Source of the DNA: an uncultured Mycoplasmatota bacterium
GTDB lineage: Bacteria; Bacillota_I; Bacilli_A; RF39; UBA660
NCBI GenBank assembly: GCA_947571135.1
Contig: CANOWY010000007.1
Span: 1 to 48,928 of the forward strand
DNA: 48,928 nt
Direction of reading: 5' to 3'
The notes below the pieces were generated by a model that saw only the letters and a list, made by a program, of their open reading frames with translations, was not told the DNA's origin and made no database searches. How positions within the stretch are numbered: position 1 is the stretch's first letter; each line of letters starts with the position of its first letter. The position numbers and the translations under genes were made by a program. Shown here one piece after another: positions 13,119 through 44,963 of the stretch.

Positions 13119-13337
13119 TTTTTTAACTCCCTCTATGGATAATTTTGTTACTTTGGCAATTTTCTATATTGTATTTACACCAAGTCAAAGTAAATATTTT
13201 GTTGTTCCATTGCATTTTGCTTAATACTTTCTACTCTTATCTGTTTCATTTCCATTTTAATATTTTCATTCTTGTGTATATTTTACTCCTATTTTTCTTT
13301 CTATTTTTCTTTACTTTTCTATAAAACTATATTAAAC

Positions 13338-13410
13338 TTATTTTAAGCGAGACACTTTAGATTAAGTGCTTGCCGTTGTAGCAGCACCATCAAATGATGG
13401 CGCTTTTTTT
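13338..13410 (+). ncRNA. Candidate antitoxin antisense RNA, locus 1
   Basis: Plus-strand RNA predicted from a -10-like TATATT (13328-13333), a conserved hairpin made of GCGAGACACTT and AAGTGCTTGC, and a terminator at 13384-13410 (GCACCATC / GATGGCGC with a seven-T tail). The first 70 bases, including the promoter area, are almost the same at 44.51-44.58 kb, while the terminators differ in sequence but not in form, as expected for a conserved RNA. It runs into the 3' end of the oppositely transcribed small-peptide mRNA, so it would be a cis-antisense RNA. The -35 is poor and the 5' end is an estimate. Confidence 0.6.
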
Positions 13411-13437
13411 ATACCCACCCCCCCTAGAACTAGTTCC

Positions 13438-13506
13438 CTAGTCAAATAGAATTAAAAGTACAATTATTACTAAAAGTCCCAAAACTAAAAAATCTTGTTT
13501 CTTCAT
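13438..13506 (-). CDS. Small hydrophobic peptide, candidate type I toxin, locus 1
   Basis: 22 residues beginning MKKQDFLVLGLL and ending LLILFD: a charged N-terminus followed by one uninterrupted membrane segment. A GGAGGG ribosome binding site (13519-13524) sits inside the loop of a hairpin whose stem is CCACTT/AAGTGG (13513-13518 with 13537-13542), which would limit translation. A paralogue of 20 residues with the same layout lies at 44.7 kb (shared LLVII core). Size and composition resemble Ibs peptides of Sib/Ibs type I systems. The homology to any named family is not established. A C7 tract follows shortly after the stop. Confidence 0.65.
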   Translation of the reverse strand: MKKQDFLVLGLLVIIVLLILFD

Positions 13507-13574
13507 TTGTAACCACTTCCCTCCATAATTGAATTAAAGTGGCAAGTTCCATACAATTTGTGCCTCGTAAAAAC

Positions 13575-13603
13575 ACTCTAAAACAACTTAAAAACAAATG
13601 CAA
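13575..13603 (-). promoter_or_regulatory. Promoter of the locus 1 peptide mRNA
   Basis: TTGCAT (13598-13603), 17-base spacer, TAGAGT (13575-13580). The predicted 5' end near 13568 starts with ACGAGGCAC (13560-13568), which can pair with GTGTCTCGC in the mRNA 3' hairpin (13347-13355). The same design recurs at locus 3. Confidence 0.6.
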
Positions 13604-13631
13604 ATTGCGAATTTCTTAAATTCACTTAAAC

Positions 13632-31643: not shown

Positions 31644-31653
31644 ATGTTATTAT
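31625..31653 (+). promoter_or_regulatory. Promoter of the locus 2 antisense RNA
   Basis: TTGTTA (31625-31630), 17-base spacer, TATTAT (31648-31653). It overlaps the tRNA-Met terminator and would start RNA at about 31660. Confidence 0.55.
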
Positions 31654-31659
31654 GAATAT

Positions 31660-31776
31660 GTCAAGGAAACTTGCATAAAATAAAAAAGGGAACATTCAGT
31701 TTTGCTATGTTGAATGTCTACCCATATTAATGTGTAAGACATTTAATTCATATGTGAATTAAGTGTCATTTTTTTA
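31660..31776 (+). ncRNA. Candidate antitoxin antisense RNA, locus 2
   Basis: Predicted plus-strand RNA of about 115 bases. It has its own promoter, a hairpin ACATTCA...TGAATGT (31692-31717) and a strong terminator at 31738-31776 (13-base stem GACATTTAATTCA/TGAATTAAGTGTC with an eight-T tail). It is complementary to the last codons and 3' untranslated region of the oppositely oriented small-peptide gene. The arrangement equals that at 13.3 and 44.5 kb, although the sequence is unrelated. Confidence 0.55.
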
Positions 31777-31858
31777 TTACTATTATCATAATGATAAGGA
31801 GAAATAAAATGATAGCAATGAGCCTAAGAGTTTTAATGATAAAAGTCCTAGTTTTCAT
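31766..31858 (-). CDS. Small hydrophobic peptide, candidate type I toxin, locus 2
   Basis: 30 residues beginning MKTRTFIIKTLRLIAIILF and ending MIIVIKK: a basic head, one long membrane segment and a basic tail. The start has a perfect AGGAGGT (31867-31873) site. This can be masked, because GAGGT of that site is complementary to ACCTC (31889-31893) in the 5' leader. Upstream lies its promoter; downstream the mRNA would end at a hairpin with a T-rich tail (31682-31717). The leader segment TTGAGTGTCTACC (31891-31903) pairs with GGTAGACATTCAA (31710-31722) in the 3' region. Not similar in sequence to the peptides of loci 1 and 3. Confidence 0.65.
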   Translation of the reverse strand: MKTRTFIIKTLRLIAIILFLLIIMIIVIKK

Positions 31859-31924
31859 TTTATCAAACCTCCTCTCTTTGAAAAATTAGAGGTAGACACT
31901 CAACAACTGATATTCCCTAAGGAA

Positions 31925-31953
31925 AGTATACTATTAAAATATATTAAAAACAA
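31925..31953 (-). promoter_or_regulatory. Promoter of the locus 2 peptide mRNA
   Basis: TTGTTT (31948-31953), 17-base spacer, TATACT (31925-31930). Predicted RNA start near 31918, about 60 bases before the peptide ATG. Confidence 0.65.
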
Positions 31954-44427: not shown

Positions 44428-44540
44428 AGTATCCCTCTTTACTTTCTTTAAAAATTATAACACTCTTTTCTAAATTTTAACATCTATCCACCTCTTTCAT
44501 TGCAAATCTTCTTTACTTATATAAAAATATATTATAGACT

Positions 44541-44623
44541 TATTTTAAGCGAGACACTTAATTTTAAGTGCTTGCCGTTTTTAAGACAAGCATCTGTCCT
44601 TTTAAAATGGACGGTGCTTTTTT
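44541..44623 (+). ncRNA. Candidate antitoxin antisense RNA, locus 3 (paralogue of locus 1)
   Basis: Plus-strand RNA predicted from a -10-like TATTAT (44530-44535), the conserved hairpin GCGAGACACTT...AAGTGCTTGC, and a terminator with stem AGCAT-CTGTCC/GGACGGTGCT and a six-T tail. Sequence from about 44511 to 44581 is almost identical to 13310-13379. It converges on the peptide mRNA transcribed from the other strand. Confidence 0.6.
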
Positions 44624-44652
44624 AATTCCAAACCCCCTTATGTTATTTACTT

Positions 44653-44715
44653 CTAGTTAAAAAGAATTATTATCACAAGTAATACTAGAATTAATATATC
44701 TTTCTTACTTATCAT
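44653..44715 (-). CDS. Small hydrophobic peptide, candidate type I toxin, locus 3
   Basis: 20 residues beginning MISKKDILIL and ending VIIILFN: short charged head and one membrane segment, with the same LLVII core as the locus 1 peptide. The ribosome binding region (GAGAGA) sits in the loop of the CCACTT/AAGTGG hairpin (44720-44725 with 44744-44749), conserved with locus 1. The stop is TAG in both, followed by the convergent small RNA. Short ORFs arise by chance, but the conserved peptide, leader and RNA at two loci argue for a real gene. Confidence 0.65.
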   Translation of the reverse strand: MISKKDILILVLLVIIILFN

Positions 44716-44781
44716 GTGACCACTTCTCTCTGTAATAGAATTAAAGTGGCAAACACCAAATTTTTGCATCTCGCAAGTTAC

Positions 44782-44809
44782 AATATAATACAAGTAAAAA
44801 TAGCGTCAA
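44782..44809 (-). promoter_or_regulatory. Promoter of the locus 3 peptide mRNA
   Basis: TTGACG (44804-44809), 16-base spacer, TATATT (44782-44787). The leader then begins with GCGAGATGC (44766-44774), complementary to the 3' hairpin segment GTGTCTCGC (44549-44557). The remaining 150 bases up to 44963 hold nothing else I can assign. Confidence 0.6.
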
Positions 44810-44963
44810 ATTGCTAATTTGCCAAATTTAATACAAAACAAAGGAAATCTACTGGGGAATTTTCAAAAAGAAAAAAACAATTTGCTAAATCTGTAAAAAT
44901 GGAAGGAAAATTAGTAAAATCTTTAAAATGTTTCTATTTTTCTCAAATTTTGTAAAACTTATC

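Follow-up and report, generated by a model that had tools for sequence, protein, structure and literature searches.

We propose that each of three loci in the window, the whole 48,928-nt stretch of DNA analysed here, is very probably a chromosomal type I toxin-antitoxin module, and that they represent a real, widespread and apparently undescribed type I toxin-antitoxin-like family, which combines a par-like plan with peptide and RNA families of its own and with twin 5' hairpins. Two of these, locus 1 (13310-13610) and locus 3 (44490-44810), are labelled type A, and the more diverged locus 2 is labelled type B. Loci 1 and 3 have a common convergent layout, in which the plus strand carries a predicted antitoxin RNA gene of ~70-80 nt with a hairpin terminator at its end and the minus strand encodes a hydrophobic peptide of 20-22 aa, the predicted toxin, whose ribosome binding site (RBS) lies within a hairpin. 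The RNA gene runs from a GCGAG-A-CACTT/AAGTG-CTTGC hairpin through a linker to a hairpin with a T-run, and its putative promoter consists of TTTACT, 17 nt, and then TAAACT or TAGACT. Upstream of the peptide genes, GGAGG or GAGAG is embedded inside a CCACTT/AAGTGG hairpin. The features of the two loci are as follows:

13310-13338, plus strand: putative antitoxin promoter of locus 1, with -35 TTTACT at 13310-13315, a 17-nt spacer and -10 TAAACT at 13333-13338 (sequence; hexamers and spacing equal in aligned relatives)
13340-13410, plus strand: predicted antitoxin RNA of locus 1, ~71 nt (covariance model R2, E = 2.3e-12; terminator scan; covariation)
13347-13373, plus strand: 5' hairpin of this RNA, GCGAG-A-CACTT/AAGTG-CTTGC
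13384-13403, plus strand: its terminator hairpin, with the T-run at 13404-13410
13438-13506, minus strand: predicted toxin peptide of locus 1, MKKQDFLVLGLLVIIVLLILFD, 22 aa (ORF; purifying selection on the 22-aa class, pN/pS 0.37)
13513-13542, minus strand: RBS hairpin of locus 1, CCACTT/AAGTGG around GGAGG (sequence; fold; model R3, E = 1.1e-15 over 13489-13582)
13575-13604, minus strand: putative toxin promoter of locus 1, TTTGCA, 18-nt spacer, TAGAGT (toxin-leader alignment)
44512-44540, plus strand: putative antitoxin promoter of locus 3, TTTACT, 17-nt spacer, TAGACT (sequence; alignment of relatives)
44542-44623, plus strand: predicted antitoxin RNA of locus 3, ~82 nt, with both hairpins and the T-run as in locus 1 (model R2, E = 7.8e-14)
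44653-44715, minus strand: predicted toxin peptide of locus 3, MISKKDILILVLLVIIILFN, 20 aa (within a listed 46-aa ORF; the 20-aa start adjoins the RBS)
44720-44749, minus strand: RBS hairpin of locus 3, CCACTT/AAGTGG (sequence; fold; model R3, E = 6.1e-14 over 44695-44789)
44780-44809, minus strand: putative toxin promoter of locus 3, TTGACG then TATATT

An initial annotation of this DNA had pointed to the shared convergent layout with minus-strand peptides of 20-22 residues, and both loci indeed display it (22 aa at 13438-13506; 20 aa at 44653-44715), along with the CCACTT/AAGTGG arms that it had placed around the RBS (13513-13518 with 13537-13542, and 44720-44725 with 44744-44749). Its further claim that the first ~70 bases of the RNA region are nearly identical at the two loci stands as regards the degree of identity (60 of 71 positions, 13307-13377 against 44509-44579), but the shared stretch takes in the promoter of the antitoxin as well as the first hairpin of its RNA, so that it is not RNA sequence only. 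The 22-mer ACTTATTTTAAGCGAGACACTT is found exactly at both loci, twice in the window, and did not occur in any of 100 shuffles. As simple promoter scans at locus 1 yielded no excess over shuffles, we base the promoters of these loci on the alignment of relatives. No terminator of the toxin's own turned up: at locus 1 the sole terminator-like site lies on the antitoxin strand, and at locus 3 a simple scan gave no site at all.

The peptide frame is under purifying selection, with pN/pS of 0.37 in the 22-aa class (26 sequences) and 0.33 in the 27-aa class (19 sequences), as against 0.97-1.09 and 2.30-2.35 in the frames shifted by 1 or 2 bases; these values were computed pairwise with the tree ignored, and the contrast between frames is large. 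Most of the variation in the ORF falls at third codon positions, and an alignment of 34 peptides yields the consensus MxKKDxLIxxLLxIIILLI, in which K3, D5, L11, I14 and I15 are nearly invariant. At the dacA-side site in another genome (G002) that matches the position of locus 3, the peptide copy (L038) has three more codons than that of locus 3, and the difference is in-frame. Based on the contrast between frames and this whole-codon difference, we conclude that the peptide frame is selected. A toxin-like ORF was correctly placed at 57 of 71 and at 30 of 44 antitoxin places.

The RNA halves of the modules were modelled with two antitoxin covariance models, R1 and its better successor R2, and with a separately built toxin-leader covariance model, R3; weak R1 matches in the family that had no toxin-like ORF were left out of the antitoxin alignment, with the exception of L064. 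Across 66 antitoxins, 94.6% of the cells in the stems are paired and double-sided changes affect 10 of the 18 pairs. The 79 double-sided cells stand against 18.8 in shuffles, none of 500 shuffles reaching that count, and against 3-14 in slid controls. These counts are tilted towards the model structure, since the alignment (A3) was fitted to that structure, and the sequences are phylogenetically related; in the freely aligned set that preceded fitting (A2) the covariation points in the same direction and is weaker. In diverged genera the antitoxin stems are rebuilt with other bases (L063, L068, L073, L156). The CCAC/GTGG stem of the toxin leader is paired in 93.8% of cells over 26 leaders, and GCGAG/TTTGC segments, a candidate 5'-end helix, are visible in the toxin leaders, where single-sequence folds often prefer other pairings.

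The two halves occur together with considerable regularity. Of 41 toxin-leader matches (R3, E <= 1e-5) across the 22 genomes of the genus, 37 have a convergent antitoxin (R2) within 400 bp and none has a divergent one. Of the four leaders without an antitoxin, one is truncated where its contig ends, and the remaining three, all in the window's own genome, have decayed: L004 has a shortened core with a D inside it and a broken RBS stem, L034 has lost its start codon and has a broken frame, and L243 has a shorter core and an altered leader. Antitoxins from which the toxin ORF has been deleted, on the other hand, persist (L033, L047, L048). This difference between decayed unpaired toxins, of which three were read, and persisting lone antitoxins is the asymmetry predicted for a toxin and its antidote. 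Several weaker toxin matches that appeared to be unpaired are type B modules missed by R2.

The numbering in the initial annotation implied a locus 2, and R3 duly detected a third, diverged module at 31650-31945 (match at 31849-31932, E = 0.001), with its antitoxin half at 31650-31773. This locus is likewise a convergent pair, in which the predicted antitoxin RNA faces MKTRTFIIKTLRLIAIILFLLIIMIIVIKK, a longer peptide than those of loci 1 and 3:

31660-31674, plus strand: leader hairpin of the antitoxin, GTCAAG(GAAA)CTTGC, with strong conservation across the type B subfamily
31679-31774, plus strand: predicted antitoxin RNA with the hairpin GGGAACATTCA.../TGAATGTCTACCC (fold; homologues in the genus sharing the leader)
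31738-31775, plus strand: antitoxin terminator, 13 bp (fold)
31766-31858, minus strand: predicted toxin peptide MKTRTFIIKTLRLIAIILFLLIIMIIVIKK (ORF; conserved versions encoded by type B relatives)
31871-31892, minus strand: RBS hairpin CCTCT/AGAGG (sequence; model R3, E = 0.001)

DNA matches to locus 2 were recovered in 21 of the 22 genomes of the genus searched, in three of these only at E > 0.003, and reach 26 in a single 1.2-Mb genome (G008), although many of them are partial and span only the conserved first 40-70 bases. Relatives of the locus encode versions of the peptide such as MKKRNFVIKVFRYIAIILFLLIIMIVVIKK.

The window's own genome (1.45 Mb in 62 contigs) has one further intact type A copy, the third, on contig C13, and decayed ones on contigs C1 (two), C3 and C9. 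A plain DNA search recovered type A in 7 of the 22 genomes of the genus; R1 matched 35 of 386 genomes of the family, and R2, in a search of the order at E <= 0.001, matched 134 of 385 genomes and 54 of 117 genera, every match lying in the window's own family. A search of the class (395 genomes) yielded 17 matches within the family and three elsewhere (L163, L165, L168), which we rejected as they have no toxin or module alongside. The 45 DNA stretches returned by a named scan all come from metagenome-assembled genomes labelled as uncultured Bacilli, Tenericutes, Mycoplasma, Bacillota and, once, Clostridia. Up to 12 antitoxin matches occur in one genome (G497). Occupancy of a given site varies: locus 3 lies between dacA and an ATPase gene in the window's genome (G000), a module is also present at the matching dacA-side site of G002, and it is absent from that site in G004, where the gene order is conserved. 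The repeated unit measures ~430 bp; its left boundary is sharp and coincides with the antitoxin -35, and its right boundary falls close to a terminator-like hairpin ~100 bp past the toxin promoter. We also considered whether the modules belong to mobile elements, a reading that we rejected after searches of plasmid and phage records and of viral contigs gave no match to them. As a separate observation, modules also form tandem arrays a few hundred bases apart, some of them without the toxin ORF (L150, G497:C42, G021:C19).

In functional terms, the minus-strand mRNA is predicted to encode a single membrane helix of 20-34 aa, with K or R and usually D close to its N-terminus and a core built from I, L, V and F, and this peptide, once made, would damage the membrane. 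The fold of the toxin mRNA leader would hide the Shine-Dalgarno sequence inside a hairpin, and the convergent plus-strand promoter would drive a short RNA with its own terminator; by binding the toxin mRNA, this RNA would either block translation or trigger degradation. Two pairing sites may be envisaged, namely the 3' region of the toxin mRNA, if the toxin transcript reaches the antitoxin gene, and the leader, via the self-complementary 5' hairpin common to both RNAs and via a short repeat beside the RBS.

With regard to the second of these sites, the same near-palindromic hairpin opens both RNAs, in the same orientation, and its two copies coevolve: cognate hairpins have a mean similarity of 11.3 as against 8.3, a value that none of 20,000 permutations over 22 clusters reached. 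The hairpin comes close to self-complementarity, and similar hairpins are for this reason complementary to one another as well. The hairpins fall into the types GCGAG/CTTGC, GGATA/TTCC and GGAAATA.TTAAC/GTT.AGTA. We tentatively raise the possibility that the antitoxin acts by strand exchange between these twin hairpins, each stem strand of one RNA pairing with the opposite stem strand of the other, such that joint changes in the hairpins would create new cognate specificities. The twin hairpins might serve in recognition, or might only protect both 5' ends, or might be used by a single protein or nuclease common to both RNAs. The antitoxin terminator additionally has a 5' arm that looks like a direct repeat of the sequence preceding the RBS (GGCAAGCAC.CAAC), clearly so in L062, L063, L073 and L139 and weakly at loci 1 and 3. 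At the level of clusters, cognates show an excess of complementarity for the terminator arm (p = 0.019) and for the 5' hairpin (p = 0.005), and locus 1 ranks poorly. Complementarity in trans between antitoxin and toxin leader was, for loci 1 and 3, generally no better than with non-cognate partners; all-against-all RNAduplex comparisons of whole leaders gave a weak cognate signal, and an ungapped direct-repeat score was modest and unspecific for these loci, on which grounds we do not claim trans pairing for them.

According to PMC12390103, type I systems were known only from Proteobacteria, Firmicutes and Tenericutes. The initial annotation regarded these sequences as absent from any described family, in agreement with our searches: no Rfam family was matched at cut-off, the near-misses of locus 1 lying far under gathering scores; no Pfam or NCBIfam entry, including Fst/Ldr, was matched among 34 peptides; and the open literature, with T1TAdb outside the search, yielded no papers on this lineage, though the peptide may already sit in an unannotated small-protein family elsewhere. 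As to the analogies that had been suggested, Ibs peptides are ~18-19 aa long and almost wholly aliphatic, with several chromosomal copies in enterobacteria, and the Sib RNA lies opposite the ibs coding sequence. That comparison fails in that the antitoxin RNA here ends before the peptide gene (~13410 against 13438 at locus 1, 44623 against 44653 at locus 3) and the promoters are convergent. In TxpA/RatA, BsrG/SR4 and related Bacillus systems the toxin mRNA and antisense RNA are convergent and overlap at their 3' ends, and the peptide is hydrophobic; their peptides, however, have ~38-59 aa and their antitoxin RNAs are longer than those described here, which have no sequence match to them in Rfam or Pfam/NCBIfam. 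The type I peptides of Clostridioides difficile are ~50 aa in length, unlike those of 20-34 aa seen here, for which there is also no plasmid, phage or viral match. What the two have in common is the presence of multiple loci per genome in a low-GC gut Firmicute (PMC7699646; review PMC6563280), and PMC7699646 ties the C. difficile loci to mobile elements such as prophage.

It is par_pAD1/Fst, with its RNA I and RNA II (PMC7472228), that offers the closest layout, also among the suggested analogies. Both have convergent promoters, a short antitoxin RNA with a terminator hairpin at its end, a stem-loop in the toxin mRNA that sequesters the Shine-Dalgarno sequence, and a short peptide with a membrane helix and a charged stretch following the start (K-K-D here, K and D in Fst). 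Counterparts may also exist here to the 5'-end helix and to the repeats that link toxin leader and antitoxin in par_pAD1. Yet the terminator of locus 1 looks one-directional, unlike the shared bidirectional terminator of par_pAD1, and the two RNAs share a 5' hairpin in the same sense, where par_pAD1 has only the direct repeats DRa and DRb. The signature of Fst peptides comprises P/D/S/TXXXG in the helix and a conserved W before a charged C-terminus (PMC7472228); the motif and a conserved W were both absent when looked for in the 34 aligned peptides, which are mostly 20-27 aa long and usually have no charged C-terminal tail. For this reason we do not file the family as Fst.

A type I toxin-antitoxin-like module, as first suggested, remains the best reading of these loci in light of a peptide frame conserved with synonymous bias and of covariance models that, when searched against the genome and its relatives, recover the module across the latter. 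It is improbable, in our assessment, that the peptide is instead a useful non-toxic small membrane protein, such as a regulator of a membrane enzyme, with the convergent RNA as an ordinary antisense regulator, even though selection on the frame and control by RNA would be expected equally in that case and the neighbours are housekeeping rather than mobile genes. The variable presence at the dacA side (with module in G000 and G002, without in G004), the many copies per genome, the tandem copies and the ORF-deleted copies that retain the RNA all speak against such a role; turnover of this kind and the decay of unpaired peptides are not what a fixed cellular role predicts.

A still less probable reading regards the modules as small interspersed selfish repeats, whose peptide and RNA serve the repeat's own propagation. 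The ~430-bp unit with its sharp left end, the high copy number (12 antitoxin matches in G497, 26 locus 2 DNA matches in G008) and the tandem copies (L150, G021:C19) are in line with it, but we saw no transposase, a target-site duplication was not established, plasmids, phages and viral contigs gave no match, and the selection on the frame together with the covariation of the stems exceeds the needs of a passive repeat. Short hydrophobic ORFs being common by chance in AT-rich DNA, we also weighed whether the layout arose by chance or convergence around a shared promoter, with peptide ORFs that are not translated; the pN/pS values, the codon-position pattern, the nearly invariant K3, D5, L11, I14 and I15, the Shine-Dalgarno sequences and the 37 of 41 convergent pairings leave this reading close to refuted.

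As no Rfam, Pfam or NCBIfam model matches them, modules of the proposed toxin-antitoxin family are invisible to current annotation. The natural variants of both RNAs and of the peptide provide a ready test of how type I pairs change specificity and of why reduced gut genomes retain them in such numbers.

We also noted additional sequence elements around the type A cassettes. In most type A copies a palindrome-like CAAATTNNNNATTTG (~13590-13620 and 44800-44830 in the window) lies across or next to the toxin -35 and could be an operator. Several type A copies (L001-L003, L033, L043, L048) are closed, ~100 bp past the toxin promoter, by a hairpin such as AAAAGACCAATTT...AAATTGGTCTTTT, which may insulate the cassette from its neighbour. 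Finally, GGGG(G)TTTTGG or GGGGGTCTTGG, a G-rich motif, directly follows the stop codon of the toxin in several copies from the window's own genus (~13411-13437 and 44624-44652 in the window) and is found inside the leader of the toxin in other family members (L089, L116, L118, L120, L128).
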